Of a DNA stretch of 34,561 nt, positions 1 through 34,561 are shown piece after piece. The notes beneath the pieces are model-generated. The model was not told the DNA's origin. It did no database searches and saw nothing but the letters and a program-made list of their open reading frames with translations. The position numbers and the translations under genes were made by a program. Position 1 is the first letter of the stretch. The number at the start of each line of letters is the position of its first letter. Source of the stretch: Saccoglossus kowalevskii (lineage: Eukaryota; Hemichordata; Enteropneusta; Harrimaniidae); assembly GCF_000003605.2 (NCBI RefSeq), contig NW_003154457.1:1-34561 (forward strand), written 5' to 3'.

Positions 1-1641
1 GGACTTATTACCTTCCCCTCTAGGAAAGTGCGACACAGTTGGTCCTATTACTTTCCGTTCTAGCAAAGTGTGACACAGTTGGTCTTATTACCCCCCTCCA
101 GCAAAGTGTGACACAGTTGGACTTATTACCCTCCCTTCTAGCATAGTGCGACACAGTTGGACTTTTTACCCTCCCCTCTAGCAAAGTGTGGTACAGTTGG
201 TCTTATTCCCCATCCTTCAAGCAAAATGTGACACAGTTGGACTTATTACCCTTCCCTCTAGCAAAATGTGACACATTTGGACTTATTACCCTCCCCTCTA
301 TAAAAGTGTGATGCAGTTGGTCTTATTACCCTACCTTCTAGCAAAGTGTGGTACAGTTGGTCTTATAACCCATCCTTCTAGCAAAGTTGAAACACAGTTG
401 GTCTTATTACCCTCTCCTCTAGCAAAGTGTGATGCAGTTGGTCTTATTGCCCTACCTACTAGTGAAGTTTGAAACAGTTGGGATTATTACCCCCCCCTCT
501 AGCAAAGTGTGACACAGTTGGTCTTATTACCCTCCCCTCTATAAAAGTGTAATGCAGTTGGTCTTATTACCCTACCTACTAGGGAAGTTTGACACAGTTG
601 TACTTATTACTCGCCCCTCTAGCAAAGTGTGACACAGTTGGTCTTATTACCTTCCTCTCTCGCAAAATGTGACACAGTTGGTCTTATTACCCTCCCTTCT
701 AGCAAAATGTGACACAGTTGATCTTATTTCCCTACCTACTAGGAAAGTTTGATACAGTTGGACTTATTACCCTCCCCTCTAGCAAAGTGTGATGCAGTTG
801 GTCTTATTACCCTACCTACGAGTGAAGTTTGAAACAGTTGGATTTATTACCCTCCCCTCTAGCAAAGTGTGACACAGTTGGACTTATTACCCTACCTACT
901 AGGGAAGTTTGACACAGTTGGTCTTATCACCCTCCCCTCTAGCAAAGTGTGACACAGTTGGTCTTATTACCCTCCTCTCTGGCAAAGTGTGACACAGTTG
1001 GTCTTATTGCCCTCCTCTCTAGCAAAATGTGACACATTTGGTCTTATTACTCTACCTACTAGGGAAGTTTGAAACAGTTGGATTTATTACCCTCCCCTCT
1101 AGCAAAGTGAGATGCAGTTGGTCTTATTATCCTCCCCTCTAGCAAAGAGTGACACAGCTGGTCTTATTACCCTCCCCTCTAGCAAAGTGTGATGCAGTTG
1201 GTCTTATTACCCTCCCTTCTAGCATAGTGCGACATAGTTGGACTTTTTACCCTCCCCTCTAGCAAAGTGTGGTACAGTTGGTCTTATTCCCCATCCTTCA
1301 AGCAAAGTGCGACACAGTTGCACGTTTTACCCTCCCTTCTAGCAAAATGTGACACAGTTGGACTTATTACCCCCCCCCTCCGCTAGCAAAGTGCGACACA
1401 GTTGGACGTTTTACACTCCCTTCTAGCAAAATGTGACACAGTTGGACTTATTACCTTCCCCTCTAGGAAAGTGCGACACAGTTGGTCCTATTACTTTCCG
1501 TTCTAGCAAAGTGTGACACAGTTGGTCTTATTACCCCCCTCCAGCAAAGTGTGACACAGTTGGACTTATTACCCTCCCTTCTAGCATAGTGCGACACAGT
1601 TGGACTTTTTACCCTCCCCTCTAGCAAAGTGTGGTACAGTT
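1..1641 (+). repeat. 1443-bp tandem HOR-A unit, one full copy plus partial second copy
   Basis: Bases 1444-1641 repeat bases 1-198 in order: the AGG monomer with GGTCCTATTAC, the CCGTTCTAG monomer, the short CCCCCCTCCAGC monomer, then GCATAGTGCGACAC. The period is 1443 bp, about 36 monomers. Relative to the colinear copy at 12289-13731, the junction at about 1107 jumps back by that same 1443 bp, inside the shared motif CTCTAGCAAAGTG. That is what unequal exchange between misaligned monomers would leave. The second copy breaks off near 1641, where TTATTATCC links it to a segment like 1120 onward. Copies near 1142 and 1664 share the private variant GCAAAGAGTGACACAGCTGG. Confidence 0.8.
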
Positions 1642-1689
1642 GGTCTTATTATCCTCCCCTCTAGCAAAGAGTGACACAGCTGGTCTTAT

Positions 1690-1790
1690 TACCCTCCCTC
1701 TAGCAAAGTGTGATGCAGTTGGTCTTATTACCTCCCCTCTAGCGAAGTGTGACACAGTTTGGTCTTATCAACCCCTCTAGCAAAGTTGAA
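1690..1790 (+). repeat. Indel-rich patch in the array
   Basis: Four length changes fall within about 110 bp compared with the related stretch near 7270-7370: a C lost in ACCCTCCCTCTAG, a C lost in TTACCTCCCCTCTAG, a T gained in CAGTTTGG, and a base lost in TATCAACCCCTC. Neighbouring monomers hold the 40-bp register. The patch is either a locally decayed or rearranged segment, or uncorrected sequencing error. Confidence 0.65.
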
Positions 1791-2545: not shown

Positions 2546-3599
2546 GACACAGTTGGGCTTTTTACCCTCCCCTCTAGCAAAGTGTGGTACAGTTGGTCTT
2601 ATTACACATCCTTCTAGCAACGTGTGACACAGTTGGACTTTTTACCCTCCCCTCTAGCAAAGTGTGATGCAGTTGGTCTTATTACCCGCCACTCTATCAA
2701 AGTGTGACACAGTTGGTCTTATCACCTTCCCTCCTAGCAAAGTTGAAACACAGTTGGTCTTATTACTCTCCCCTCTAGAAAAGTGTGATGCAGTTGGTCT
2801 TATTACCCTACCTTCTAGCAAAGTGTGGTACAGTTGGTCTTATAACCCATCCTCCTAGCAAAGTTGAAACACACTTGGTCTTATTACACTCCCCTCTAGA
2901 AAAGTGTGATGCAGTTGGTCTTATTACCCCCTCCTCTAGAAAAGTGTGATACAGTTGGTCCTATTACTTTTCCTTCTAGCAAAGAGTGACACAGTTGGTC
3001 TTATTACCCTCCCCTCTAGCAAAGTGTGACACAGTTGGACTTATTACCCTCCCTTCTAGCAAAGTGCGACAGAGTTGGACGTTTTACCCTCCCCTCTAGC
3101 AAAGTGTGGTACAGTTGGTCTTATTCCCCATCCTTCTAGCAAAGTGCGACACAGTTGGACGTTTTACCCTCCCTTCTAGCAAAATGTGACACAGTTGGAC
3201 TTATTACCCTCCCCTCTAGCAAAGTGCGACACAGTTGGATGTTTTACTCTCTCTTCTAGCAAAATGTGACACAGTTGGACTTATTACCTTCCCCTCTAGG
3301 AAAGTGCGACACAGTTGGTCCTATTACTTTCCGTTCTAGCAAAGTGTGACACAGTTGGTCTTATTACCCCCCTCCAGCAAAGCGTGACACAGTTGGACTT
3401 ATTACCCTACCTTCTAGCATAGTGCGAAACAGTTGGACTTTTTACCCTCCCCTCTAGCAAAGTGTGGTACAGTTGGTCTTATTCCTCATCCTTCAAGCAA
3501 AATGTGACACAGTTGGACTTATTACCCTCCCCTCTAGCAAAGGGTGACACAGTTGTTCTTATTACCCTCCCCTCTAGCAAAGTGTGACACAGTTGGTCT

Positions 3600-3855
3600 T
3601 ATTCCCCTCCCTTCTAGCAAAGTGTGACACAGTTGGTCTTACCCCCCCCCCCCCTAGCAAAGCGTGACACAGTTGGACTTATTACCCTCCCTTCTAGCAA
3701 AGTGTGACACAGTAGGACTTTTTATCCTCTCCTCTAGCAAAGTGTGGTACAGTTGGTCTTATTATCCTCTCCTCTAGCAAAGTGTGACACAGTTGGTCTT
3801 ATTACCTTCCCTTCTAGCAAAGTGAGATGCAGTTGGTCTTATTACCTCCTTCTAG
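3600..3855 (+). repeat. HOR-A island inside HOR-B block 1
   Basis: About six monomers here have HOR-A character: a long C-run, then GCAAAGCGTGACAC, ACACAGTAGGAC, TTATTATCCTCTCC and GTGAGATGCAG. They match 11940-12130 at an offset of about 8305 and share its rare variant ACAGTAGGAC. HOR-B monomers lie on both sides. A short conversion tract or a double exchange would explain it. Confidence 0.75.
3642..3654 (+). repeat. 13-nt poly-C run (G13 on minus strand)
   Basis: This is the longest homopolymer I found in the window. It follows GGTCTTA and precedes TAGCAAAGCG; the usual TTATTA before the C-run is shortened to TTA. Paralogous positions carry 6 to 11 C, so this run appears length-unstable, or is a consensus error in a homopolymer. 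Confidence 0.9.
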
Positions 3856-6040
3856 CAAAATGTGACACAGTTGGACTTATTACCCTCCCTTCTAGCAAAG
3901 TGCCACACAGTTGGACGTTTTACCCTCCCCTCTAGCAAAGTGTGGTACAGTTGGTCTTATTCCCCATCCTTCTAGCAAAGTGCGACACAGTTGGACGTTT
4001 TACTCTCCCTTCTAGCAAAATGTGACAAAGTTGGACTTATTACCTTCCCCTCTAGGAAAGTGTGACACAGTTGGTCCTATTACTTTCCCTTCTAGCAAAG
4101 TGTGACACAGTTGGTCTTATTACCCTCCTCCAGCAAAGTGTGACACAGTTGGACTTATTACCCTCCCTTCTAGCATAGTGCGACACAGTTGGACTTTTTA
4201 CACATCCTTCTAGCAACGTGTGACACAGTTGGACTTTTTACCCTCCCCTCTAGCAAAGTGTGGTACAGTTGGTTTTATTACCCATCCTTCTAGCAAAATG
4301 TGACACAGTTGGTCTTATTACCCTCCCTTCTAGTAAAATGTGACACAGTTGGTCTTATTACCCTCCCCTCGAGCAAAGTGTGGTGCAGTTGGTCTTACTG
4401 CCCTCCCCCCTAGCAAAGTGTGACACAGTTGGTCTTATTACCCTCCCCTCTAGCGAAGTATGATGCAGTTGGTCTTATTACCCTCCACTCTAGCAAAGTG
4501 TGACACAGTTGGTCTTATCACCTTCCCTTCTAGCAAAGTTGAAACACAGTTGGTCTTATTACTCTCCCCTCTAGAAAAGTGTGATGCAGTTGGTCTTATT
4601 AACCTACCTTCTAGCAAAGTGTGGTACAGTTGGTCTTATAACCCATCCTTCTAGCAAAGTTGAAACACAGTTGGTCTTATTACACTCCCCTCTAGAAAAG
4701 TGTGATGCAGTTGGTCTTATTACCCCCTCCTCTAGAAAAGTGTGATACAGTTGGTCCTATTACTTTTCCTTCTAGCAAAGTGCGACACAGTTGGTCTTAT
4801 TACCCTCCCCTCTAGCAAAGTGTGACACAGTTGGACTTATTACCCTCCCTTCTAGCAAAGTGCGACAGAGTTGGACGTTTTACCCTCCCCGCTAGCAAAG
4901 TGTGGTACAGTTGGTCTTATTCCCCATCCTTCTAGCAAAGTGCGACACAGTTGGACGTTTTACTCTCCCTTCTAGCAAAATGTGACACAGTTGGACTTAT
5001 TACCTTCCCCTCTAGGAAAGTGCGACACAGTTGGTCCTATTACTTTCCCTTCTAGCAAAGTGTGACACAGTTGGTCTTATTACCCCCCTCCAGCAAAGTG
5101 TGACACAGTTGGACTTATTACCCTCCCTTCTAGCATAGTGCGACACAGTTGGACTTTTTACCCTCCCCTCTAGCAAAGTGTGGTACAGTTGGTCTTATTC
5201 CCCATCCTTCAAGCAAAATGTGACACAGTTGGAATTATTACCCTCCCCTCTAGCAAAGCGTGGCAAAGTTGAACTTATTACCCTCCCCTATGGCAAAGTG
5301 TGACACAGTTGGTCTTATTACTCTCCCGTCAAGCAAAGTGTGACACAGTTGGTCTTATTACCCCCCTCTAGCAAAGTGTGACACAGTTGGACATTTTACC
5401 CTCCCCTCTAGCAAAGTGTGGTACAGTTGGTCATATTCCTCATCCTTCTAGCAAAGTGCCACACAGTTGGACGTTTTACCCTCCGTTCTAGCAAAATGTG
5501 ACACAGTTGGACTTATTACCCTCCCCTCTAGCAAAATGTGACACATTTGGACTTATTACCTTCCCCTCTAGGAAAGTGCGACACAGTTGGTCCTATTACT
5601 TTCCCTTCTAGCAAAGTGTGACACAGATGGTCTTATTACCCCTCTCTAGCAAAGTGTGACACAGTTGGACTTTTTACCCTCCCCTCTAGCAAAGTGTGGT
5701 ACAGTTGGTCTTATTCCCGATCCTTCTAGCAAAGTGCGACAGAGTTGGACGTTTTACCCTCCCCTCTAGCAAAGTGTGGTACAGTTGGTCTTATTCCCCA
5801 TCCTTCTAGCAAAGTGCGACACAGTTGGACGTTTTACTCTCCCTTCTAGCAAAATGTGACACAGTTGGACTTATTACCTTCCCCTCTAGGAAAGTGCGAC
5901 ACAGTTGGTCCTATTACTTTCTCTTCTAGCAAAGTGTGACACAGTTGGTCTTATTACCCCCCTCCAGCAAAGTGTGACACAGTTGGTCTTATTACCCTCC
6001 CTTCTAGCATAGTGCGACACAGTTGGTCTTTTTACCCTCC

Positions 6041-9000
6041 CTTCTAGCAAAATGTGACACAGTTGGTCTTATTTCCCTACCTACTAGGAAAGTTTGATAC
6101 AGTTGGACTTATTACCCTCCCCTCTAGCAAAGTGTGATGCAGTTGGTCTTATTACCCTACCTACTAGTGAAGTTTGAAACAGTTGGATTTATTACCCTCC
6201 CCTCTAGCAAAGTGTGACACAGTTGGACTTATTACCCTACCTACTAGGGAAGTTTGACACAGTTGGACTTATCACCCTCCCCTCTAGCAAAGTGTGACAC
6301 AGTTGGTCTTATTACCCTCCTCTCTGGCAAAGTGTGACACGGTTGGTCTTATTGCCCTCCTCTCTAGCAAAATGTGACACATTTGGTCTTATTACTCTAC
6401 CTACTAGGGAAGTTTGAAACAGTTGGACTTATTACCCTCCCCTCTAGCAAAGTGTGATGCAGTTGGTCTTATTACCTTCCCGTCTAGCAAAATGTGACAC
6501 AGTTGGTCTTAATACCCTCCCCTCGAGCAAAGTGTGGTGCAGTTGGTCTTACTGCCATCCCCTCTAGCAAAGTGTGACACAGTTGGTCTTATTACCCTCC
6601 CCTCTAGCAAAGTGTGATGCAGTTGGTCTTATTACCCTCCACTCTAGCAAAGTGTGACACAGTTGGTCTTCTCACCTTCCCTTCTAGCAATGTTGAAACA
6701 CAGTTGGTCTTATTACCCTCCCCTCTAGAAAAGTGTGATGCAGTTGGTCTTATTACCCTACCTTCTAGCAAAGTGTGGTACAGTTGGTCTTATAACGCAT
6801 CCTTCTAGCAAAGTTGAAAAACAGTTGGTCTTATTACCCTCCCCTCTAGCAAAGTGTGACACTGTTGGTCTTATTACCCCCCTAGCAAAGCGTGACACAG
6901 TTGGACTTATTACCCTCCCTTCTAGCAAAGTGTGACACAGTTGGACTTTTTACCCTCTCCTCTAGCAAAGTGTGGTACAGTTGGTCTTATTACACTCTCC
7001 TCTAGCAAAGTGTGACACAGTTGGTCTTATTACCTTCCCTTCTAGCAAAGTGAGATGCAGTTGGTCTTATTACTTTCCCCTCTAGCAAAGTGTGACACGG
7101 TTGGTCTAATTATCCTCCCCTCTAGCAAAGTGTAGTGCAATTGGTCATATTGCCCTCCCCTCCAGCAAAGTGTGAAACAGTTGGTCTTATTACCCCCCCC
7201 TCTAGCAAAGTGAGATGCAGTTGGTCTTATTATCCTCCCCTCTAGCAAAGTGTGACACAGCTGGTCTTATTACCCTCCCCTCTAGCAAAGTGTGATGCAG
7301 TTGGTCTTATTACCCTCCCCTCTAGCGAAGTGTGACACAGTTGGTCTTATCACCCCCCTCTAGCAAAGTTGAAAAACAGTTGGACTTATTACCCTCCCTT
7401 CTAGCAAAGTGTGACACAGTTGGACTTTTTACCCTCTCCTCTAGCAAAGTGTGGTACAGTTGGTCTTATTACCCTCTCCTCTAGCAAAGTGTGACACAGT
7501 TGGTCTTATTACCTTCCCTTCTAGCAAAGTGAGATGCAGTTGGTCTTATTACCTTCCCCTCTAGCAAAGTGTGACACGGTTGGTCTAATTATCCTCCCCT
7601 CTAGCAAAGTGTAGTGCCGTTGGTCATATTGCCCTCCCCTCTAGCAAAGTGTGACACAGTTGGTCTTATTACCCCCCCTCTAGCAAAGTGAGATGCAGTT
7701 GGTCTTATTATCCTCCCCTCTAGCAAAGTGTGACACAGCTGGTCTTATTACCCTCCCCTCTAGCAAAGTGTGATGCAGTTGGTCTTATTACCCTCCCTTC
7801 TAGCATAGTGCGACACAGTTGGACTTTTTACCCTCCCCTCTAGCAAAGTGTGGTACAGTTGGTCTTATTCCCCATCCTTCAAGCAAAGTGCGACACAGTT
7901 GCACGTTTTACCCTCCCTTCTAGCAAAATGTGACACAGTTGGACTTATTACCCCCCTCCGCTAGCAGAGTGCGACACAGTTGGACGTTTTACTCTCCCTT
8001 CTAGCAAAATGTGACACAGTTGGACTTATTACCTTCCCCTCTAGGAAAGTGCGACACAGTTGGTCCTATTACTTTCCCTTCTAGCAAAGTGTGACACAGT
8101 TGGTCTTATTACTTTCCGTTCTAGCAAAGTGTGACACAGTTGGTCTTATTACCCTCCCTTCTAGCATAGTGCGACACAGTTGGACTTTTTACCCTCCCCT
8201 CTAGCAAAGTGTGGTACAGTTGGTCTTATTCCCCATCCTTCAAGCAAAGTGCGACACAGTTGCACGTTTTACCCTCCCTTCTAGCAAAATGTGACACAGT
8301 TGGACTTATTACCCTTCCCTCTAGCAAAATGTGACACATTTGGACTTATTACCCTCCCCTCTATAAAAGTGTGATGCAGTTGGTCTTATTACCCTACTTT
8401 CTAGCAAAGTGTGGTACAGTTGGTCTTATAACCCATCCTTCTAGCAAAGTTGAAACACAGTTGGTCTTATTACCCATCCTCTAGCAAAGTGTGATGCAGT
8501 TGGTCTTATTACCCTCTCCTCTAGCAAAGTGTGATGCAGTTGGTCTTATTGCCCTACCTACTAGTGAAGTTTGAAACAGTTGGGATTATTACCCCCCTCT
8601 AGCAAAGTGTGACACAGTTGGTCTTATTACCCTCCCCTCTATAAAAGTGTAATGCAGTTGGTCTTATTACCCTACCTACTAGGGAAGTTTGACACAGTTG
8701 TACTTATTACTCGCCCCTCTAGCAAAGTGTGACACAGTTGGTCTTATTACCATCCTCTCTCGCAAAATGTGACACAGTTGGTCTTATTACCCTCCCTTCT
8801 AGCAAAATGTGACACAGTTGGTCTTATTTCCCTACCTACTAGGAAAGTTTGATACAGTTGGACTTATTACCCTCCCCTCTAGCAAAGTGTGATGCAGTTG
8901 GTCTTATTACCCTACCTACAAGTGAAGTTTGAAACAGTTGGATTTATTACCCTCCCCTCTAGCAAAGTGTGACACAGTTGGACTTATTACCCTACCTACT

Positions 9001-10285
9001 AGGGAAGTTTGACACAGTTGGACTTATCACCCTCCCCTCTAGCAAAGTGTGACACAGTTGGTCTTATTACCCTCCTCTCTGGCAAAGTGTGACACAGTTG
9101 GTCTTATTGCCCTCCTCCTTAGCAAAATGTGACACATTTGGTCTTATTACTCTACCTACTAGGGAAGTTTGAAACAGTTGGACTTATTACCCTCCCCTCT
9201 AGCAAAGTGTGATGCAGTTGGTCTTATTACCTTCCCGTCTAGCAAAATGTGACACAGTTGGTCTTAATACCCTCCCCTCGAGCAAAGTGTGGTGCAGTTG
9301 GTCTTACTGCCATCCCCTCTAGCAAAGTGTGACACAGTTGGTCTTATTACCCTCCCCTCTAGCAAAGTGTGATGCAGTTGGTCTTATTACCCTCCACTCT
9401 AGCAAAGTGTGACACAGTTGGTCTTCTCACCTTCCCTTCTAGCAATGTTGAAACACAGTTGGTCTTATTACCCTCCCCTCTAGAAAAGTGTGATGCAGTT
9501 GGTCTTATTACCCTACCTTCTAGCAAAGTGTGGTGCAGTTGGTCTTATAACGCATCCTTCTAGCAAAGTTGAAAAACAGTTGGTCTTATTACCCTCCCCT
9601 CTAGCAAAGTGTGACACTGTTGGTCTTATTACCCCCCTAGCAAAGCGTGACACAGTTGGACTTATTACCCTCCCTTCTAGCAATGTGTGACACAGTTGAA
9701 CTTTTTACCCTCTCCTCTAGCAAAGTGTGGTACAGTTGGTCTTATTACCCTCTCCTCTAGCAAAGTGTGACACAGTTGGTCTTATTACCTTTCCTTCTAG
9801 CAAAGTGAGATGCAGTTGGTCTTATTACTTTCCCCTCTAGCAAAGTGTGACACGGTGGTCTAATTATCCTCCCCTCTAGCAAAGTGTAGTGCCGTTGGTC
9901 ATATTGCCCTCCCCTTCAGCAAAGTGTGACACAGTTGGTCTTATTACCCCCCCTCTAGCAAAGTGAGATGCAGTTGGTCTTATTATCCTCCCCTCTAGCA
10001 AAGTGTGACACAGCTGGTCTTATTACCCTCCCCTCCAGCAAAGTGTGACACAGTTGGACTTATTACCCTCCCTTCTAGCATAGTGCGACATAGTTGGACT
10101 TTTTACCCTCCCCTCTAGCAAAGTTTGGTACAGTTGGTCTTATTCCCCATCCTTCAAGCAAAGTGCGACACAGTTGCACGTTTTACCCTCCCTTCTAGCA
10201 AAATGTGACACAGATGGACTTATTACCCTTCCCTCTAGCAAAATGTGACACATTTGGACTTATTACCCTCCCCTCTATAAAAGTG
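6041..10285 (+). repeat. HOR-A block 2
   Basis: This is a long HOR-A stretch. Its left part, about 6060-6900, repeats at 8815-9655 with an offset of 2755: both AGTTTGATACAG monomers (6091 and 8846) and CTCGAG sites (6522 and 9277) fit exactly. In between lie the ACACGGTTGG, GTAGTGCCG, GTGAGATGCAG, CAGCTGG, GCATAGTGCG and AGTTGCACG monomers. The 2755-bp spacing equals a 2208-bp HOR-A cycle, as seen from 11594 to 13802, plus extra material that includes the duplication starting at 6903. The block ends near 10285, in monomers that both families share. Confidence 0.85.
6903..7791 (+). repeat. Tandem duplication, about 479 bp (12 monomers)
   Basis: The segment from 6903 recurs from 7382. GGACTTATTACC is at 6903 and 7382, the first GTGAGATGCAG at 7050 and 7529 (offset 479), and the second at 7210 and 7688 (offset 478, because a C-run is 8 in the first copy and 7 in the second). 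Similarity to the first copy stops near 7312/7791, where one copy continues as TAGCGAAGTG and the other as TAGCATAGTG. Confidence 0.85.
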
Positions 10286-11260
10286 TGATGCAGTTCGTCT
10301 TATTACCCTACCTTCTAGCAAAGTGTGGTACAGTTGGTCTTATAACCCATCCTCCTAGCAAAGTTGAAACACAGTTGGTCTTATTACACTCCCCTCTAGA
10401 AAAGTGTGATGCAGTTGGTCTTATTACCCCCTCCTCTAGAAAAAGTGTGATACAGTTGGTCCTATTACTTTTCCTTCTAGCAAAGAGTGACACAGTTGGT
10501 CTTATTACCCTCCCCTCTAGCAAAGTGTGACACAGTTGGACTTATTACCCTCCCTTCTAGCAAAGTGCGACAGAGTTGTACGTTTTACCCTCCCCTCTAG
10601 CAAAGTGTGGTACAGTTGGTCTTATTCCCCATCCTTCTAGCAAAGTGCGACACAGTTGGACGTTTTACCCTCCGTTCTAGCAAAATGTGACACAGTTGGA
10701 CTTATTACCCTCCTCTCTAGCAAAGTGCGACACAGTTGGACGTTTTACTCTCTCTTCTAGCAAAATGTGACACAGTTGGACTTATTACCTTCCCCTCTAG
10801 GAAAGTGCGACACAGTTGGTCCTATTACTTTCCCTTCTAGCAAAGTGTGACACAGTTGGTCTTATTACCCCCCTCCAGCAAAGTGTGACACAGTTGGACT
10901 TATTACCCTCCCTTCTAGCATAGTGCGAAACAGTTGGACTTTTTACCCTCCCCTCTAGCAAAGTGTGACAAAGTTGAACTTATTACCCTCCCCTATGGCA
11001 AAGTGTGACACAGTTGGTCTTATTACTCTCCCGTCTAGCAAAGTGTGACACAGTTGGTCTTATTACCCCCCCCTCTAGCAAAGTGTGACACAGTTGGACT
11101 TTTTACCCTCCCCTCTAGCAAAGTGTGGTACAGTTGGTCTTATTCCCCATCCTACTAGTGAAAGTGCGACACAGTTGGACGTTTTACCCTCCCTTCTAGC
11201 AAAATGTGACACAGTTGGACTTATTACCCTCCCTTCTAGCAAAATGTGACACAGTTGGAC
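10286..11260 (+). repeat. HOR-B block 2 (short insert between HOR-A blocks)
   Basis: HOR-B markers run from the CCATCCTCCTAGC monomer near 10350 through TCTAGAAAAGTG, GCGACAGAGTTG, GGACGTTTT, GACAAAGTTGAAC (10968) and CCTATGGC (10992). The segment is parallel to 25721-26500. The left switch falls in the GTGTGATGCAG and GTGTGGTACAG monomers common to both families. The right switch falls near 11260, where GGACTTATCACC (an HOR-A form) appears. Confidence 0.8.
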
Positions 11261-11948
11261 TTATCACCCTCCCCTCTAGCAAAGTGTGACACAGTTGGTC
11301 TTATTACTCTCCTCTCTGGCAAAGTGTGACACAGTTGGTCTTATTACCCTCCCCTCTAGCAAAGTGTGACACAGTTGGTCTTATTACCCTACCTACTCGG
11401 GAAGTTTGACACAGTTGGACTTATTACCCTCCCCTCTAGCAAAATGTGACACATTTGGTCTTATTACTCTACCTACTAGGGAAGTTTGAAACAGTTGGAC
11501 TTATTACCCTCCCCTCTAGCAAAGTGTGATGCAGTTGGTCTTATTACCTTCCCGTCTAGCAAAATGTGACACAGTTGGTCTTAATACCCTCCCCTCGAGC
11601 AAAGTGTGGTGCAGTTGGTCCTACTGCCATCCCCTCTAGCAAAGTGTGACACAGTTGGTCTTATTACCCTCCCCTCTAGCAAAGTGTGATGCAGTTGGTC
11701 TTATTACCCTCCACTCTAGCAAAGTGTGACACAGTTGGTCTTCTCACCTTCCCTTCTAGCAATGTTGAAACACAGTTGGTCTTATTACCCTCCCCTCTAG
11801 AAAAGTGTGATGCAGTTGGTCTTATTACCCTACCTTCTAGCAAAGTGTGGTACAGTTGGTCTTATAACGCATCCTTCTAGCAAAGTTGAAAAACAGTTGG
11901 TCTTATTACCCTCCCCTCTAGCAAAGTGTGACACTGTTGGTCTTATTA

Positions 11949-11959
11949 CCCCCCCCCCC
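11949..11959 (+). repeat. 11-nt poly-C run
   Basis: The run lies after GGTCTTATTA and before TAGCAAAGCG. Equivalent positions in other HOR-A copies have 10 C (1849, 14157), 9 C (15842) and 6 C (6877, 9632, 28257). It is a marker of length instability at one HOR position. Confidence 0.9.
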
Positions 11960-12551: not shown

Positions 12552-12561
12552 CCCCCCCCCC
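12552..12561 (+). repeat. 10-nt poly-C run before CCGCTAGC monomer
   Basis: The run comes before TCCGCTAGC. Equivalents have 9 C at 1370-1378 and 28851-28859, and 6 C near 7951. Confidence 0.9.
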
Positions 12562-23485: not shown

Positions 23486-23495
23486 CCCCCCCCCC
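23486..23495 (+). repeat. 10-nt poly-C run at an HOR-B to HOR-A junction
   Basis: The run follows ACTTTTTA and is joined directly to GCTAGCAAAGTGCGATAC. The usual TC between the C-run and CGCTAGC (as at 12562) is missing. Confidence 0.85.
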
Positions 23496-23973
23496 GCTAG
23501 CAAAGTGCGATACAGTTGGACGTTTTACTCTCCCTTCTAGCAAAATGTGACACAGTTGGACTTATTACCTTCCCCTCTAGGAAAGTGCGACACAGTTGGT
23601 CCTATTACTTTCCCTTCTAGCAAAGTGTGACACAGTTGGTCTTATTACCCCCCCTCCAGCAAAGTGTGACACAGTTGGACTTATTACCCTCCCTTCTAGC
23701 ATAGTGAGACACAGTTGGACTTTTTACCCTCCCCTCTAGCAAAGTGTGGTACAGTTGGTCTTATTCTCCATCCTTCAAGCAAAGTGCGACACAGTTGCAC
23801 GTTTTACTCTCCCTTCTAGCAAAATGTGACACAGTTGGACTTATTACCCTTCCCTCTAGCAAAATGTGACACATTTGGACTTATTACCCTCCCCTCTAGG
23901 AAAGTGCGACACAGTTGGTCCTATTACTTTCCCTTCTAGCAAAGTGTGACACAGTTGGTCTTATTACCCCCCT

Positions 23974-24021
23974 CTAGCAAAGTGTGACACTGTGACAGTT
24001 GGTCTTATTACCCCCCCCCTC
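23974..24021 (+). repeat. Monomer with 6-nt internal duplication and long C-run
   Basis: GTGTGACAC is followed by an extra TGTGAC before AGTTGG, so TGTGAC occurs twice. A run of nine C then ends the monomer. This is a micro-duplication inside the core motif, not seen in any other copy. Confidence 0.8.
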
Positions 24022-25720
24022 TAGCAAAGTTTGATACAGTTGGACTTATTACCCTCCCCTCTAGCAAAGTGTGATGCAGTTGGTCTTATTACCCTACATA
24101 CTAGTGAAGTTTGAAACAGTTGGATTTATTACCCTCCCCTCTAGCAAAGTGTGACACAGTTTGACTTATTACCCTACCTACTAGGGAAGTTTGACACAGT
24201 TGGACTTATCACCCTCCCCTCTAGCAAAGTGTGACACAGTTGGTCTTATTACCCTCCTCTCTGGCAAAGTGTGACACAGTTGGTCTTATTGCCCTCCTCT
24301 CTAGCAAAATGTGACACATTTGGTCTTATTACTCTACCTACTAGGGAAGTTTGAAACAGTTGGACTTATTACCCTCCCCTCTAGCAAAGTGTGATGCAGT
24401 TGGTCTTATTACCTTCCCGTCTAGCAAAATGTGACACAGTTGGTCTTAATACCCTCCCCTCGAGCAAAGTGTGGTGCAGTTGGTCTTACTGCCATCCCCT
24501 CTAGCAAAGTGTGACACAGTTGGTCTTATTACCCTCCCCTCTAGCAAAGTGTGATGCAGTTGGTCTTATTACCCTCCACTCTAGCAAAGTGTGACACAGT
24601 TGGTCTTCTCACCTTCCCTTCTAGCAATGTTGAAACACAGTTGGTCTTATTACCCTCCCCTCTAGAAAAGTGTGATGCAGTTGGTCTTATTACCCTACCT
24701 TCTAGCAAAGTGTGGTGCAGTTGGTCTTATAACGCATCCTTCTAGCAAAGTTGAAAAACAGTTGGTCTTATTACCCTCCCCTCTAGCAAAGTGTGGTACA
24801 GTTGGTCTTATTCCCCATCCTTCAAGCAAAGTGCGACACAGTTGCACGTTTTACCCTCCCTTCTAGCAAACTGTGACAGAGTTGGACTTATTACCCTTCG
24901 CTCTAGCAAAATGTGACACATTTGGACTTATTACCCTCCCCTCTATAAAAGTGTGATGCAGTTGGTCTTATTACCCTACCTTCTAGCAAAATGTGACACA
25001 GTTGATCTTATTTCCCTACCTACTAGGAAAGTTTGATACAGTTGGACTTATTACCCTCCCCTCTAGCAAAGTGTGATGCAGTTGGTCTTATTACCCTACC
25101 TACGAGTGAAGTTTGAAACAGTTGGATTTATTACCCTCCCCTCTAGCAAAGTGTGACACAGTTGGACTTATTACCCTACCTACTAGGGAAGTTTGACACA
25201 GTTGGTCTTATCACCCTCCCCTCTAGCAAAGTGTGACACAGTTGGTCTTATTACCCTCCTCTCTGGCAAAGTGTGACACAGTTGGTCTTATTGCCCTCCT
25301 CTCTAGCAAAATGTGACACATTTGGTCTTATTACTCTACCTACTAGGGAAGTTTGAAACAGTTGGATTTATTACCCTCCCCTCTAGCAAAGTGTGATGCA
25401 GTTGGTCTTATTACCTTCCCGTCTAGCAAAATGTGACACAGTTGGTCTTAATACCCTCCCCTCGAGCAAAGTGTGGTGCAGTTGGTCTTACTGCCATCCC
25501 CTCTAGCAAAGTGTGGCACAGTTGGTCTTATAACCCATCCCCTCTAGCAAAGTTGAAACACAGTTGGTCTTATTACCCTCCACCCTAGCAAAGTGTGACA
25601 CAGTTGGTCTTCTCACCTTCCCTTCTAGCAATGTTGAAACACAGTTGGTCTTATTACCCTCCCCTCTAGAAAAGTGTGATGCAGTTGGTCTTATTACCCT
25701 ACCTTCTAGCAAAGTGTGAC

Positions 25721-26815
25721 ACAGTTGGACTTATTACCCTCCCTTCTAGCAAAGTGCGACAGAGTTGTACGTTTTACCCTCCCCTCTAGCAAAGTGTGGT
25801 ACAGTTGGTCTTATTCCCCATCCTTCTAGCAAAGTGCGACACAGTTGGACGTTTTACCCTCCCTTCTAGCAAAATGTGACACAGTTGGACTTATTACCCT
25901 CCTCTCTAGCAAAGTGCGACACAGTTGGACGTTTTACTCTCTCTTCTAGCAAAATGTGACACAGTTGGACTTATTACCTTCCCCTCTAGGAAAGTGCGAC
26001 ACAGTTGGTCCTATTACTTTCCCTTCTAGCAAAGTGTGACACAGTTGGTCTTATTACCCCCCTCCAGCAAAGTGTGACACAGTTGGACTTATTACCCTCC
26101 CTTCTAGCATAGTGCGAAACAGTTGGACTTTTTACCCTCCCCTCTAGCAAAGTGTGGTACAGTTGGTCTTATTCCCCATCCTTCAAGCAAAATGTGACAC
26201 AGTTGGACTTATTACCCTCCCCTCTAGCAAAGTGTGACAAAGTTGAACTTATTACCCTCCCCTATGGCAAAGTGTGACACAGTTGGTCTTATTACTCTCC
26301 CGTCTAGCAAAGTGTGACACAGTTGGTCTTATTACCCCCCCCCCTCTAGCAAAGTGTGACACAGTTGGACTTTTTACCCTCCCCTCTAGCAAAGTGTGGT
26401 ACAGTTGGTCTTATTCCCCATCCTACTAGCAAAGTGCGACACAGTTGGACGTTTTACCCTCCCTTCTAGCAAAATGTGACACAGTTGGACTTATTACCCT
26501 CCCTTTTAGCAAAATGTGACACAGTTGGACTTATTACCCTCCCTTCTAGCAAAGTGCGACACAGTTGGACGTTTTACCCTACCCTCTAGCAAAGTGTGGT
26601 ACAGTTGGTCTTATTCCCCATCCTTCTGGCAAAGTGCGACACAGTTGGACGTTTTACCCTCCCTTCTAGCAAAATGTGACACAGTTGGACTTATTACCCT
26701 CCCCTCTAGCAAAATGTGACACATTTGGACTTATTACCTTCCCTCTAGAAAGTGTGACACAGTTGGTCCTATTACTTTCCCTTCTAGCAAAGTGTGACAC
26801 AGTTGGTGTTATTAC
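25721..26815 (+). repeat. HOR-B block 4
   Basis: This block is colinear with 31075-32100 at a constant offset of 5354. GCGACAGAGTTG at 25757/31111, CCTATGGC at 26261/31615 and the GTGACACAG monomer starting the trimer at 26516/31870 all fit. At the C-run near 26335, ten C here equal C-A-C8 in the other copy, so lengths agree. The near-absence of length changes over about 1 kb suggests a recent shared origin. Confidence 0.85.
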
Positions 26816-26945
26816 CCCCTCTAGCATAGTGCGACACAGTTGGACTTTTTACCTCCCGTCTAGCAAAGTGTGGTACAGTTGGTCTTATTCCCCATCCTTC
26901 AAGCAAAAGTGCGACACAGTTGCACGTTTTTACCCTCCCTTCTAG
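26735..26945 (+). repeat. Indel-rich patch at an HOR-B to HOR-A junction
   Basis: Compared with sister copies, CCTTCCCTCTAGAAAGTG is two bases short, ACCTCCCGTCTAG is one C short, AAGCAAAAGTGCG has an extra A and GCACGTTTTTACC an extra T. These shifts also keep one frame open for 89 codons (26676-26945), the longest open frame in the window. That length is therefore an effect of indels, not of selection. Confidence 0.7.
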
Positions 26946-29900
26946 CAAAATGTGACACAGTTGGACTTATTACTCTTCCCTCTAGCAAAATGTGACACAT
27001 TTGGTCTTATTACCCTCCCCTCTATAAAAGTGTGATGCAGTTGGTCTTATTACCCTACCTTCTAGCAAAGTGTGGTACAGTTGGTCTTATAACCCATCCT
27101 TCTAGCAAAGTTGAAACACAGTTGGTCTTATCACACTCTCCTCTAGCAAAGTGTGATGCAGTTGGTCTTATTGCCCTACCTACTAGTGAAGTTTGAAACA
27201 GTTGGGATTATTACCCCCCCCCTCTAGCAAAGTGTGACACAGTTGGTCTTATTACCCTCCCCTCTATAAAAGTGTAATGCAGTTGGTCTTATTACCCTAC
27301 CTACTAGGGAAGTTTGACACAGTTGTACTTATTACTCGCCCCTCTAGCAAAGTGTGACACAGTTGGTCTTATTACCTTCCTCTCTCGCAAAATGTGACAC
27401 AGTTGGTCTTATTACCCTCCCTTCTAGCAAAATGTGACACAGTTGATCTTATTTCCCTACCTACTAGGAAAGTTTGATACAGTTGGACTTATTACCCTCC
27501 CCTCTAGCAAAGTGTGATGCAGTTGGTCTTATTACCCTACCTACTAGTGAAGTTTGAAACAGTTTGATTTATTACCCTCCCCTCTAGCAAAGTGTGACAC
27601 AGTTGGACTTATTACCCTACCTACTAGGGAAGTTTGACACAGTTGGACTTATCACCCTCCCCTCTAGCAAAGTGTGACACAGTTGGTCTTATTACCCTCC
27701 TCTCTGGCAAAGTGTGACACAGTTGGTCTTATTGCCCTCCTCTCTAGCAAAATGTGACACATTTGGTCTTATTACTCTACCTACTAGGGAAGTTTGAAAC
27801 AGTTGGACTTATTACCCTCCCCTCTAGCAAAGTGTGATGCAGTTGGTCTTATTACCTTCCCGTCTAGCAAAATGTGACACAGTTGGTCTTAATACCCTCC
27901 CCTCGAGCAAAGTGTGGTGCAGTTGGTCTTACTGCCATCCCCTCTAGCAAAGTGTGACACAGTTGGTCTTATTACCCTCCCCTCTAGCAAAGTGTGATGC
28001 AGTTGGTCTTATTACCCTCCACTCTAGCAAAGTGTGACACAGTTGGTCTTCTCACCTTCCCTTCTAGCAATGTTGAAACACAGTTGGTCTTATTACCCTC
28101 CCCTCTAGAAAAGTGTGATGCAGTTGGTCTTATTACCCTACCTTCTAGCAAAGTGTGGTGCAGTTGGTCTTATAACGCATCCTTCTAGCAAAGTTGAAAA
28201 ACAGTTGGTCTTATTACCCTCCCCTCTAGCAAAGTGTGACACTGTTGGTCTTATTACCCCCCTAGCAAAGCGTGACACAGTTGGACTTATTACCCTCCCT
28301 TCTAGCAAAGTGTGACACAGTTGGACTTGTTATCCTCTCCTCTAGCAAAGTGTGGTACAGTTGGTCTTATTACCCTCTCCTCTAGCAAAGTGTGACACAG
28401 TTGGTCTTATTACCTTCCCTTCTAGCAAAGTGAGATGCAGTTGGTCTTATTACTTTCCCCTCTAGCAAAGTGTGACACGGTGGTCTAATTATCCTCCCCT
28501 CTAGCAAAGTGTAGTGCCGTTGGTCATATTGCCCTCCCCTTCAGCAAAGTGTGACACAGTTGGTCTTATTACTCCCCCTCTAGCAAAGAGAGATGCAGTT
28601 GGTCTTATTATCCTCCCCTCTAGCAAAGTGTGACACAGCTGGTCTTATAACCCTCCCCTCTAGCAAAGTGTGATGCAGTTGGTCTTATTACCCTCTCTTC
28701 TAGCATAGTGCGACACAGTTGGACTTTTTACCCTCCCCTCTAGCAAAGTGTGGTACAGTTGGTCTTATTCCCCATCCTTCAAGCAAAGTGCGACACAGTT
28801 GCACGTTTTACCCTCCCTTCTAGCAAAATGTGACACAGTTGGACTTATTACCCCCCCCCTCCGCTAGCAAAGTGCGACACAGTTGGACGTTTTACTCTCC
28901 CTTCTAGCAAAATGTGACACAGTTGGACTTATTACCTTCCCCTCTAGGAAAGTGCGACACAGTTGGTCCTATTACTTTCCGTTCTAGCAAAGTGTGACAC
29001 AGTTGGTCTTATTACCCCCTCCAGCAAAGTGTGACACAGTTGGACTTATTACCCTCCCTTCTAGCATAGTGCGACACAGTTGGACTTTTTACCCTCCCCT
29101 CTAGCAAAGTGTGGTACAGTTGGTCTTATTCCCCATCCTTCAAGCAAAGTGCGACACAGTTGCACGTTTTACCCTCCCTTCTAGCAAAATGTGACACAGT
29201 TGGACTTATTACCCTTCCCTCTAGCAAAATGTGACACATTTGGACTTATTACCCTCCCCTCTATAAAAGTGTGATGCAGTTGGTCTTATTACCCTACCTT
29301 CTAGCAAAGTGTGGTACAGTTGGTCTTATAACCCATCCTTCTAGCAAAGTTGAAACACAGTTGGTCTTATTACCCTCTCCTCTAGCAAAGTGTGATGCAG
29401 TTGGTCTTATTGCCCTACCTACTAGTGAAGTTTGAAACAGTTGGGATTATTACCCCCCCTCTAGCAAAGTATGACACAGTTGGTCTTATTACCCTCCCCT
29501 CTATGAAAGTGTAATGCAGTTGGTCTTATTACCCTACCTTCTAGCAAAGTGTGGTACAGTTGGTCTTATAACCCATCCTTCTAGCAAAGTTGAAACACAG
29601 TTGTTTTAATACACTCTCCTCTAGCAAAGTGTGATGCAGTTGGTCTTATTGCCATACGTACTAGTGAAGTTTGAAACAATTGGGATTATTACCCCCCTCT
29701 AGCAAAGTGTGACACAGTTGGTCTTATTACCCTCCCCTCTATAAAAAGTGTAATGCAGTTGGTCTTATTACCCTACCTACTAGGGAAGTTTGACACAGTT
29801 GTACTTATTACTCGCCCCTCTAGCAAAGTGTGACACAGTTGGTATTATTACCATCCTCTCTCGCAAAATGTGACACAGTTGGTCTTATTACCCTCCCTTC

Positions 29901-30310
29901 TAGCAAAATGTGACACAGTTGGTCTTATTTCCCTACCTACTAGGAAAGTTTGATACAGTTGGACTTATTACCCTCCCCTCTAGCAAAGTGTGATGCAGTT
30001 GGTCTTATTACCCTACCTACAAGTGAAGTTTGAAACAGTTGGATTTATTACCCTCCCCTCTAGCAAAGTGTGACACAGTTGGACTTATTACCCTACCTAC
30101 TAGGGAAGTTTGACACAGTTGGACTTATCACCCTCCCCTCTAGCAAAGTGTGACACAGTTGGTCTTATTACCCTCCTCTCTGGCAAAGTGTGACACAGTT
30201 GGTCTTATTGCCCTCCTCTCTAGCAAAATGTGACACATTTGGTCTTATTACTCTACCTACTAGGGAAGTTTGAAACAGTTGGACTTATTACCCTCCCCTC
30301 TAGCAAAGTG
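26816..30310 (+). repeat. HOR-A block 5
   Basis: CTCGAG stands at 27902. The stretch 27902-28620 is sister to 9277-9960 at an offset of about 18625: both have ACACGGTGG with one T lost, and CCCTTCAGC in place of CCCTCCAGC. After 28850 comes the CCGCTAGC to ACACATTTGG to ATAAAAGTGT series. The next CTCGAG monomer would be expected shortly after 30290, but the order switches near 30310 to HOR-B monomers like 17090-17200. Confidence 0.85.
29262..29741 (+). repeat. Tandem duplication, 240 bp (6 monomers)
   Basis: The series ATAAAAGTGT, GTGTGGTACAG (29311), GTTGAAACACAG, GTGTGATGCAG and AGTGAAGTTT is repeated starting near 29502, with GTGTGGTACAG at 29551. The second copy starts with a changed ATGAAAGTGT and contains other private changes (GTTGTTTTAATAC, GCCATACGTAC, ACAATTGGG). 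The copies have thus diverged somewhat since duplication. Confidence 0.8.
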
Positions 30311-31259: not shown

Positions 31260-34200
31260 CTAGCAAAGTGCGACACAGTTGGATGTTTTACTCTCTCTTC
31301 TAGCAAAATGTGACACAGTTGGACTTATTACCTTCCCCTCTAGGAAAGTGCGACACAGTTGGTCCTATTACTTTCCCTTCTAGCAAAGTGTGACACAGTT
31401 GGTCTTATTACCCCCCTCCAGCAAAGTGTGACACAGTTGGACTTATTACCCTCCCTTCTAGCATAGTGCGAAACAGTTGGACTTTTTACCCTCCCCTCTA
31501 GCAAAGTGTGGTACAGTTGGTCTTATTCCCCATCCTTCAAGCAAAATGTGACACAGTTGGACTTATTACCCTCCCCTCTAGCAAAGTGTGACAAAGTTGA
31601 ACTTATTACCCTCCCCTATGGCAAAGTGTGACACAGTTGGTCTTATTACTCTCCCGTCTAGCAAAGTGTGACACAGTTGGTCTTATTACACCCCCCCCTC
31701 TAGCAAAGTGTGACACAGTTGGACTTTTTACCCTCCCCTCTAGCAAAGTGTGGTACAGTTGGTCTTATTCCCCATCCTACTAGCAAAGTGCGACACAGTT
31801 GGACGTTTTACCCTCCCTTCTAGCAAAATGTGACACAGTTGGACTTATTACCCTCCCTTCTAGCAAAATGTGACACAGTTGGACTTATTACCCTCCCTTC
31901 TAGCAAAGTGCGACACAGTTGGACGTTTTACCCTACCCTCTAGCAAAGTGTGGTACAGTTGGTCTTATTCCCCATCCTTCTGGCAAAGTGCGACACAGTT
32001 GGACGTTTTACCCTCCCTTCTAGCAAAATGTGACACAGTTGGACTTATTACCCTCCCCTCTAGCAAAATGTGACACATTTGGACTTATTACCTTCCCCTC
32101 TAGGAAAGTGTGACACAGTTGGTCCTATTACTTTCCCTTCTAGCAAAGTGTGACACAGTTGGTCTTATTACCCCCCTCTAGCAAAGTGTGACACAGTTGG
32201 ACTTTTTACCCTCCCCTCTAGCAAAGTGTGGTACAGTTGGTCTTATTCCCGATCCTTCTAGCAAAGAGAGACGCAGTTGGACGTTTTACCCTCCCTTCTA
32301 GCAAAATGTGACCCAGTTGGACTTATTACCCTCCCTTCTAGCAAAGTGCGACACAGTTGGACGTTTTACCCTCCCCTCTAGCAAAGTGTGGTACAGTTGG
32401 TCTTATTCCCCATCCTTCTAGCAAAGTGCGACACAGTTGGACGTTCTACCCTCCCTTCTAGCAAAATGTGAAACAGTTGGTCTTATTACCCTCCCATCTA
32501 GCAAAGTGTGACACAATTGGTCTCATTACCCTCCCCTCTAGCGAAGCGTGACACAGTTGGTCTTAATACCCTACCAACTCGGAAAGTTTGACACAGTTGG
32601 ACTTATTACCCTCCCCTCTAGCAAAGTGTGACACAGTTGGACGTTTTACCCTCCCCTCTAGCAAAGTGTGGTACAGTTGGTCTTATTCCCGATCCTTCTA
32701 GCAAAGAGCGACGCAGTTGGACGTTTTACCCTCCCTTCTAGCAAAATGTGACACAGTTGGACTTATTACCCTCCCTTCTAGCAAAGTGCGACACAGTTGG
32801 ATGTTTTACCCTCCCCTCTAGCAAAGTGTGGTACAGTTGGTCTTATTCCCCATCCTTCTAGCAAAGTGCGACACAGTTGGACGTTCTACCCTCCCTTCTA
32901 GCAAAATGTGAAACAGTTGGTCTTACTACCCTCCCATCTAGCAAAGTGTGACACAGTTGGTCTCATTACCCTCCCCTCTAGCAAAGCGTGACACAGTTGG
33001 TCTTAATACCCTACCAACTCGGGAAGTTTGACACAGTTGGACTTATTACCCTCCCCTCTAGCAAAGTGTGGTGCAGTTGGTCTTACTGCCCTCCCCCCTA
33101 GCAAAGTGTGACACAGTTGGTCTTATTACCCTCCCCTCTAGCAAAGTGTGATGCAGTTGGTCTTATTACCCTCCACTCTAGCAAAGTGTGACACAGTTGG
33201 TATTATCACCTTCCCTTCTAGCAAAGTTGAAACACAGTTGGTCTTATTACTCTCCTTTCTAGAAAAGTGTGATGCAGTTGGTCTTATTACCCTACCTTCT
33301 AGCAAAGTGTGGTACAGTTGGTCTTATAACCCATCCTTCTAGCAAAGTTGAAACACAGTTGGTCTTATTACACTCCCCCCTAGCAAAGTGTGACACAGTT
33401 GGTCTTATTACCCTCCCCTCTAGCAAAGTGCGACACAGTTGGACGTTTTACTCTCTCTTCTAGCAAAATGTGACACAGTTGGACTTATTACCTTCCCCTC
33501 TAGGAAAGTGCGACACAGTTGGTCCTATTACTTTCCCTTCTAGCAAAGTGTGACACAGTTGGTCTTATTACCCCCCTCCAGCAAAGTGTGACACAGTTGG
33601 ACTTATTACCCTCCCTTCTAGCATAGTGCGAAACAGTTGGACTTTTTACCCTCCCCTCTAGCAAAGTGTGGTACAGTTGGTCTTATTCCCCATCCTTCAA
33701 GCAAAATGTGACACAGTTGGACTTATTACCCTCCCCTCTAGCAAAGTGTGACAAAGTTGAACTTATTACCCTCCCCTATGGCAAAGTGTGACACAGTTGG
33801 TCTTATTACTCTCCCGTCTAGCAAAGTGTGACACAGTTGGTCTTATTACACCCCCCCTCTAGCAAAGTGTGACACAGTTGGACTTTTTACCCTCCCCTCT
33901 AGCAAAGTGTGGTACAGTTGGTCTTATTCCCCATCCTACTAGCAAAGTGCGACACAGTTGGACGTTTTACCCTCCCTTCTAGCAAAATGTGACACAGTTG
34001 GACTTATTACCCTCCCTTTTAGCAAAATGTGACACAGTTGGACTCATTACCCTCCCTTCTAGCAAAGTGCGACACAGTTGGACGTTTTACCCTCCCCTCT
34101 AGCAAAGTGTGGTACAGTTGGTCTTATTCCCCATCCTTCTGGCAAAGTGCGACACAGTTGGACGTTTTACCCTCCCTTCTAGCAAAATGTGACACAGTTG

Positions 34201-34561
34201 GACTTATTACCCTCCCCTCTAGCAAAATGTGACACATTTGGACTTATTACCTTCCCCTCTAGGAAAGTGTGACACAGTTGGTCCTATTACTTTCCCTTCT
34301 AGCAAAGTGTGACACAGTTGGTCTTATTACCCCCCTCTTGCAAAGTGTGACACAGTTGGACTTTTTACCCTCCCCTCTAGCAAAGTGTGGTACAGTTGGT
34401 CTTATTCCCGATCCTTCTAGCAAAGAGAGACGCAGTTGGACGTTTTACCCTCCCTTCTAGCAAAATGTGACACAGTTGGACTTATTACCCTCCCTTCTAG
34501 CAAAGTGCGACACAGTTGGACGTTTTACCCTCCCCTCTAGCAAAGTGTGGTACAGTTGGTC
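31260..34561 (+). repeat. 2160-bp HOR-B unit, one full copy plus 1142 bp of the next
   Basis: Bases 33420-34561 repeat 31260-32402 at an offset of 2160 (54 monomers exactly). The offset is 2159 after the C-run near 33850, which is one C shorter than that at 31690. Anchors are GTGCGACAC at 31268/33428, CCTATGGC at 31615/33775 and the trimer starts at 31870/34029. This is the best-preserved complete HOR-B period in the window. Confidence 0.9.
32181..33060 (+). repeat. 440-bp tandem duplication (11 monomers), two full copies
   Basis: Bases 32181-32620 and 32621-33060 match monomer by monomer: GCAAAGAGAG at 32261 with GCAAAGAGCG at 32701, and CTACCAACTC at 32571 with the same at 33011. Differences are mainly single substitutions such as GACGTTTT against GATGTTTT. 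The CTACCAACTCGG monomer, rare elsewhere, marks the end of each copy. Confidence 0.88.

Follow-up and report, generated by a model that had tools for sequence, protein, structure and literature searches.

Two interleaved families of irregular higher-order repeats on one 40-bp monomer in a 34.5-kb satellite array

The stretch of DNA analysed here (34,561 bp, the window) is filled by a single 40-bp satellite in which two families of irregular higher-order repeats (HORs), HOR-A and HOR-B, alternate in segments that are joined in monomer register. It is very likely that both families are lineages of one ancestral block, amplified block by block and then joined by recombination in the 40-bp register.

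Results

The array runs head to tail through the whole window and comprises 865 monomers of 307 distinct sequences; 741 of the 865 are exactly 40 bp long when cut by wraparound alignment, which was made to the forward consensus only. TRF reports 864 copies of period 40 with 81% matches over bases 4–34561. Any two monomers differ by 7.0 edits on average. Only two open reading frames of at least 80 codons occur (81 and 89 aa), the window holds no tRNA and no Rfam match at the gathering score, and the 34.5-kb stretch is apparently non-coding. A long head-to-tail array of a short non-coding unit of this kind is a satellite or long minisatellite. In a check of helical phasing, the WW autocorrelation peaked at 20 and 40 bp and was negative at 10. 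The CENP-B box, with its core TTCGNNNNANNCGGG, has no match in the window with up to one mismatch. Phage and plasmid collections queried with positions 5000–7000 (2001 of the 34,561 bases), and viral and genome contig collections queried with one 22-base pattern, gave no match; these collections are not eukaryotic and do not address eukaryotes. A full-text literature search with six short monomer stretches returned four papers, in each of which a single 12-base term occurs once; judged by their titles, these look like chance. The array is probably of eukaryotic origin.

Table 1. Features of the window, by position
Feature	Start	End	Strand	Basis or remark
40-bp satellite array, all monomers in the same orientation	1	34561	+	TRF, wraparound alignment
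HOR-A segment 1	1	2395	+	sticky HMM
9-monomer module, example of the A version	1238	1599	+	class strings, module comparison
HOR-B segment 1, contains the small A-type patch	2396	5982	+	sticky HMM
9-monomer module, example of the B version	3075	3432	+	class strings, module comparison
Small A-type patch in HOR-B segment 1 (limits approximate)	3553	3832	+	stay-0.99 HMM solutions, copy parse, exact match
HOR-A segment 2	5983	10333	+	sticky HMM
HOR-B segment 2 (short)	10334	11254	+	sticky HMM
HOR-A segment 3	11255	16068	+	sticky HMM
HOR-B segment 3	16069	23754	+	sticky HMM; right edge ambiguous
HOR-A segment 4	23755	25684	+	sticky HMM
633-bp exact repeat, the longest in the window	24163	24795	+	other copy starts at 27606; both lie in A
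HOR-B segment 4 (short)	25685	26802	+	sticky HMM
HOR-A segment 5	26803	30278	+	sticky HMM
HOR-B segment 5	30279	34561	+	sticky HMM, repeat runs

The original prediction held that two families with separate diagnostic variants share one monomer, and four lines of evidence bear it out. First, its A/B labels carry 0.667 bits of information about monomer class, compared with maxima of 0.479 bits (mean 0.187) in 845 circular shifts and 0.381 bits in 1000 segment permutations. Second, a sticky two-state hidden Markov model (HMM) of the monomer classes, blind to the predicted coordinates (stay probabilities 0.999 and 0.99999, 24 random starts each), yields 10 segments and nine switches and assigns 98.4% of the monomers as predicted. 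The switches are sharp, as had been foreseen; eight of the nine boundaries lie less than 100 bp from those predicted, and the largest gap is 284 bp (23755 versus 23471), in a module common to A and B. Since a small A-type patch, with a 202-bp exact match from 3644 to an A copy at 11949, lies inside the first B segment, the predicted count of "at least nine" alternations is right. Third, under the HMM labels 38 classes with at least five copies, accounting for 323 monomers, are confined to a single family, where circular shifts reach at most 25 classes and 170 monomers; this test is less independent than that of label information because the HMM labels had themselves been fitted to these classes. 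Fourth, with HMM labels and a segment's own sequence left out, A lies 0.78 edits per 40 bp from other A segments and 3.26 from B, and B 1.10 from other B segments and 2.89 from A. Classes present in both families hold 410 of the 865 monomers, or about half.

The split depends on how strongly switching is penalized. Raising the stay probability to 0.99999999 leaves five and seven switches in the two best distinct solutions (92.7% and 94.8% agreement with the prediction), and at 0.99 the solutions shown have 21–35 segments (61–88%). A freely fitted HMM agrees at only 67.6%, with BIC favouring one state and AIC three; its gain of 387 over one state is matched by six first-order Markov surrogates (365–406), and six plain shuffles reach only 91–108. 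Free models of one to four states recover sub-modules instead of A and B, which counts against A/B as the only level of organization. As loose or free transitions favour smaller modules, A/B is a coarse level only; within these limits, diagnostic variants and sharp switches place two lineages in one array. Two of 20 block permutations give the sticky HMM a higher likelihood than the real order does; the switch count alone separates all 20.

Neither HOR-A nor HOR-B is a clean HOR. In HOR-A some 47 monomers form an irregular chain, at times with an added 9-mer, and HOR-B is a set of rows, most of which restart at a GGTACAG monomer and whose commonest offsets are 89 and 54 monomers. Multi-monomer blocks are far more alike than monomers at large: 12 runs of 27–40 monomers diverge by only 0.28–2.22%. 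In HOR-B segment 5, for example, a 28-monomer stretch at 31279 recurs at 33439, 54 monomers (2160 bp) further on. The repeats lack a fixed period, however; offsets within a segment vary (69, 42, 97, 55, and 62 monomers in A; 89, 54, and 45 in B), and they are therefore called irregular HORs.

Two multi-monomer blocks are common to both families. A 9-monomer module (four A and seven B copies; one of 12 was dropped as it crosses a segment edge) diverges by 2.0% within A, 3.8% within B, and 5.2% between A and B. A 6-monomer block, C-Q-p/m (seven A and eight B copies), diverges by 0.24%, 1.86%, and 3.73%, respectively, with 12 consensus differences between the families. Since the two families have these homologous blocks in common, 3.7–5.2% apart, a single ancestral block seems to have given rise to both as separate lineages. 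The 3.8% between 9-mer copies within B indicates that B is not tightly homogenized.

Near-identical blocks are largely confined to one family. The 134 ungapped near-identical runs of at least six monomers comprise 53 A–A, 53 B–B, and 28 mixed runs; the eight pure A–B runs span 6–7 monomers each, compared with up to 37 for A–A and 40 for B–B. With one segment edge set at 23514/23515, the longest exact tracts measure 633 bp (A–A), 542 bp (B–B), and 202 bp (A–B). In a greedy copy parse, 51 copied phrases cover 808 of the 865 monomers, and 48 of the 51 have a source in the same family. A gapped monomer-level self-alignment was discarded, as its many gaps merged unrelated blocks, and was replaced by the ungapped runs and the greedy parse. 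Within the window similarity does not decay with distance. A runs test on phrase order finds 10–12 runs against 26 expected (z −4.0 to −4.6), and 20 of 20 permutations of that order produce 17–31 switches, compared with the nine observed.

All nine junctions join the families in monomer register. Of the seven adjacencies surrounding each boundary, one or more is unique in the window; the same is true of 45–51% of within-family control windows (n = 728). The junctions at 10334, 25685, 26803, and 30279 are crisp two-parent chimeras with 9–17 mismatches per about 680 bp, and those at 2396 and 11255 need 21–22. Those near 5983, 15.96 kb, and 23.4–24.0 kb need 28–56 and enclose unique monomers, so that extra events or unsampled parents are required. 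The right edge of HOR-B segment 3 is ambiguous from about 23471 to 24040 because a shared module and unique monomers lie there, and it is not fixed at 23755 since a run of nine monomers matching 28883 in A extends across this HMM boundary. Estimated crossover tracts measure 2–89 bp. Parental monomers at the crossovers differ by 5.1 edits on average, versus 7.1 for random A × B pairs (p = 0.012), a comparison biased towards similar parents by placing the crossover where mismatches are fewest. Three motifs had been proposed as natural exchange points; they occur at four of nine junctions against 3.6 expected in a 2-monomer window (p = 0.51) and, again without enrichment, at six of nine against 5.8 in a 4-monomer window. 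At the coordinates originally predicted the count, a bare one without an expectation, is five of nine. Clean single-step insertion of A into B, or the reverse, was rejected: in class strings read by eye (A segments 2–5, B segments 1–2) the unit phase breaks across the inserted block.

Discussion

A multi-monomer block of the 40-bp unit would have been ancestral to two lineages, HOR-A and HOR-B, each of which would then have been amplified by copying blocks of about 4–39 monomers (0.2–1.6 kb). The near-identical blocks are probably copies of each other made by recombination. Recombination would finally have joined A and B stretches with the 40-bp register intact but the longer unit out of phase. 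Unequal exchange, gene conversion, or break-induced replication that switches templates between repeats would each be expected to do so; a pathway of this type presumably made the joins, which appear younger than much of the amplification. The proposal of recombination between two HOR lineages is supported by the diagnostic variants, the sharp switches, and the joins in monomer register, and is retained without the named exchange motifs. Its premise that arrays go to one HOR is too strong, given that published descriptions of satellites include several HOR arrays or irregular HORs (PMC12058530, PMC2588610).

In one variant compatible with this history, each lineage expanded at a locus of its own, and the two arrays later merged and were then shuffled. 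The persistent clustering of the families in blocks, seen in the runs test and the phrase permutations, and the confinement of most near-identical blocks to one family fit such a merger. Both homologous blocks, the register, and the orientation are nevertheless common to A and B, so that a single array that diverged internally accounts for the data just as well, and a merger seems rather unlikely.

It is improbable that there are no two families, just a set of modules for which A/B is a coarse label. The free HMM does favour sub-blocks with a gain no larger than that of Markov surrogates, the 9-mer module is common to both families, nearly half of the monomers fall in shared classes, and a sticky three-state model splits A in two while mostly keeping B. 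Against this stand the 38 exclusive classes, the context gap (0.8–1.1 versus 2.9–3.3 edits), and the 39 of 50 joins between copied phrases that are within one family by source.

A periodic alternation, with A and B together forming one very long super-HOR, is highly improbable. Offsets of 328 and 379 monomers (13–15 kb) do give the highest match fractions among offsets 1–400, and the two short B segments, compared by eye, span a similar part of the B unit; yet the best offset, 328, matches only 11.7% of pairs, which excludes a fixed period across the window, every junction has some adjacency uncopied elsewhere, and the single run among 134 that extends two or more monomers to each side of a junction (23755) has its partner inside A, where there is no switch. 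An assembly or library artefact that wrongly joined reads of two arrays can hardly be credited, since repeats that are identical over as much as 633 bp stand apart in the window, while the longest exact match between A and B is 202 bp, since long-read overlaps should not misjoin at tracts as short as the crossovers, and since nine misjoins would be needed, every one in the 40-bp register.

The array can be read as a record of satellite evolution. Two diverged lineages expose switches that a homogeneous array would hide, which makes it possible to measure how identity affects exchange, along with block sizes, register, and phase. Near-identical copies reach across blocks of the other family, with A and B interleaved every 0.9–7.7 kb. 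Because copies stay in the family, reach over other blocks, and show no distance decay, homogenization might conceivably be governed here by sequence identity irrespective of position, with intermixed subfamilies keeping separate identities, although we consider this doubtful. If true, a sequence difference of only about 4–8% would keep two interleaved subfamilies apart; if the separation is maintained and not transient, homogenization would need to act by identity and not by neighbourhood.

Comparison with known systems

Monomers of similar length are described from plants. CficCl-61-40 of Chenopodium has a monomer of about 40 bp in higher-order units, and for C. vulvaria the authors suggest that several related HOR units formed at once (PMC6429384, PMC7320549). 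The present array resembles it in both respects, whereas the conserved motif given for CficCl-61-40, TTTCATTTGA (PMC7320549), has no match in the window with up to one mismatch. Carrot CentDc, likened here by unit length alone, combines 39–40-bp monomers in a higher-order unit, which, unlike those of HOR-A and HOR-B, is described as about 159 bp and typically four monomers long (PMC8259371).

Other parallels concern arrangement. In cascading HORs, as in HOR-B, several copies of one monomer type occur within a unit, set out in rows; the published 58-mer shows high regularity, with 0.25% mean divergence between canonical copies (PMC12428378), whereas HOR-B is irregular. Patchwork centromeres of orangutan alpha-satellite typically hold three or four HOR pockets and up to nine HOR arrays (PMC12058530, PMC12428378). 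As described there, several distinct HOR lineages adjoin within one satellite. Here the monomer is 40 bp, in contrast to the 171 bp of alpha-satellite, and switches come every 0.9–7.7 kb. The array of the 61-bp VNTR at human Xp22.33 spans 18 kb and contains HORs, irregular ones, of 1.6 and 2.5 kb (PMC2588610). Set side by side by description, the two differ in monomer length (61 versus 40 bp) and share a short monomer, a similar array scale, more than one irregular HOR size, and a complex arrangement. The array is of a kind known from eukaryotes, the satellite or long minisatellite array, and of the block-wise shuffling already known inside satellites it is a clear example.

Array Composition

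The window constitutes one tandem array, captured in a single TRF row (period 40, 864 copies, 81% matches, bases 4–34561). Aligned with wraparound to the forward consensus, it resolves into 865 monomers; 741 of them measure exactly 40 bp, and the set comprises 307 distinct sequences. The array looks non-coding, since its open reading frames of at least 80 aa number two (81 and 89 aa), it contains no tRNA and it has no Rfam match at the gathering score. Inverted-repeat pairs of at least 20 nt give no sign of inverted blocks in the window, as all six use one 22-nt arm and are 77% complementary. GC content is 44–46%. Over positions 1–34561, CpG observed/expected is 0.20 (0.16 in A and 0.23 in B, the two higher-order repeat (HOR) families built from the monomer) and TpG is 1.29; the low CpG is compatible with a CpG-methylated genome, although CpG is already absent from the consensus monomer. 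The commonest CpG site in the window is the GTGCGACAC/GTGTGACAC variant position. WW dinucleotide autocorrelation over the same positions has maxima at 20 and 40 bp and is negative at 10 bp.

Two Families as a Coarse Level of Organization

The original prediction, in which A and B stretches alternate with at least nine switches, is upheld: its labels hold 0.667 bits on monomer class, versus at best 0.479 in 845 circular shifts and 0.381 in 1000 segment permutations. A sticky two-state HMM (stay 0.999 or 0.99999), blind to these labels, returns ten segments with 98.4% agreement; eight of nine boundaries lie at most 100 bp from those predicted, and one, 284 bp off, falls inside a module common to both families.

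Segments of the two HOR families according to the sticky two-state HMM
Family	Positions
A	1–2395
A	5983–10333
A	11255–16068
A	23755–25684
A	26803–30278
B	all stretches between A segments

Several results count against the two-family labelling. Raising the stay value to 0.99999999 leaves 6 and 8 segments in the top two distinct solutions, and at 0.99 the solutions listed have 21–35 (61–88% agreement with the predicted labels). A free HMM yields sub-modules (67.6% agreement), with one state selected by BIC and three by AIC. Two states gain 387 log units over one, as compared to 91–108 in six shuffles and 365–406 in six first-order Markov surrogates. Because sub-modules emerge, segment number changes with the stay value and the gain lies within the Markov-surrogate range, A/B is a coarse level that becomes visible when long segments are demanded, and the smaller modules are equally real. 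With three sticky states, the best two of 12 starts split A in two parts and keep B mostly whole; in the second-best, 23352–24039 no longer belongs to B. Monomer classes (sequence clusters) with at least three copies comprise 28 confined to A (201 monomers), 24 confined to B (169) and 25 present in both (410), the remaining 85 of 865 monomers belonging to rarer classes.

Read by eye from class strings and successor counts, both families are irregular HORs. A is a chain of ~47 monomer classes in which some units gain a 9-monomer module, and its commonest within-segment spacings are not constant (69, 42, 97, 55 and 62 monomers). B consists of rows of 4–9 monomers, most beginning at a GGTACAG monomer, with offsets of 89 and 54 monomers commonest; one 28-monomer stretch recurs 54 monomers (2160 bp) downstream at 0.63% divergence. 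Two low-copy stretches within B (16350–16867 and 20071–20430), partly alike at an offset of 89–93 monomers, are possibly older divergent satellite.

Probable Block Copying and Common Origin

Near-identical ungapped runs of at least six monomers number 134 (53 A-A, 53 B-B and 28 mixed); eight of the mixed runs, 6–7 monomers long, are purely A-B. A greedy parse of the monomer string, which shows likeness between stretches and not the direction of copying, covers 808 of 865 monomers with 51 copied phrases of 4–39 monomers, leaving 57 single monomers. A same-family source exists for 48 phrases; of the other three, two sit where segments end (15989, 23474) and the third, at 3593, belongs to a small A-type patch inside a B segment (3553–3832). 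This patch, which from 3644 matches an A copy at 11949 exactly over 202 bp, is likely a recent short conversion or copy event. By source, 39 of 50 steps between consecutive phrases remain in one family, and phrase order is clustered (10–12 runs versus 26 expected). All 20 block permutations gave 17–31 switches versus the nine observed, although two of them surpassed the observed HMM likelihood. Among 10-mer pairs averaging two or fewer edits per monomer, similarity is independent of distance in A (101 pairs, Spearman -0.09, p = 0.39) and B (79 pairs, 0.03, p = 0.79).

A and B have two multi-monomer blocks in common. In the 9-mer module (four A and seven B copies; a twelfth, crossing a segment edge, was left out), divergence is 2.0% among A copies, 3.8% among B copies and 5.2% across the families, with 7 consensus differences. 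For the 6-mer C-Q-p/m block (seven A, eight B), the values are 0.24%, 1.86% and 3.73%, with 12 consensus differences. Judged from these shared blocks, the two families appear to be sister lineages and not separate assemblies of monomers.

Junctions

Monomer register is kept within a few bases at all nine junctions, nearby monomers measuring 37–44 bp. Misjoined assembly is an unlikely source of the switches, as it would have had to keep the register nine times at tracts no longer than 89 bp. Repeats that are exact over as much as 633 bp are present as separate copies, while exact A-B sharing does not exceed 202 bp. Of the seven adjacencies surrounding each boundary, one or more are unmatched anywhere else in the window at all nine junctions; the same is true of 45–51% of 728 within-family windows (four settings). 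By simple arithmetic, nine of nine would have a chance of ~0.002 if junctions are independent. This suggests that the joins postdate much of the block copying. Three junctions are messy (5983, about 15.96 kb and 23.4–24.0 kb). The position of the 23755 boundary is uncertain, because it sits within a 9-monomer run matching 28883 inside A. At one B-to-A switch, a cluster of odd monomers (23393–24040), some with long C runs and 41–44 bp in length, is poorly explained by either family.

Best-crossover tracts measure 24, 89, 75, 13, 2, 5, 14, 45 and 39 bp, the 89-bp tract at 5983 depending on a poor left parent; exact identical stretches in random in-register pairs have a median length of 8, with the 99th percentile at 49, a rough guide as the two were measured differently. 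Parent monomers at crossovers are closer than random (5.1 versus 7.1 edits, p = 0.012), with a bias in that crossovers were picked for few mismatches. The three monomers proposed as natural exchange points are not enriched at junctions; if similarity helps exchange, it is general similarity rather than these monomers.

Relation to Known Satellites

In open-licence full text, six short stretches of the monomer gave single 12-base matches in four papers. Among known families of ~40 bp, CficCl-61-40 is ruled out for the window by its motif (PMC7320549), and carrot CentDc (PMC8259371) resembles the array in monomer length. The window is a genuine and informative mosaic in which two HOR lineages are combined, of a kind already known: published work describes several HOR lineages within one satellite (PMC12058530, PMC12428378), irregular HORs in a short-unit VNTR (PMC2588610) and cascading HORs (PMC12428378).
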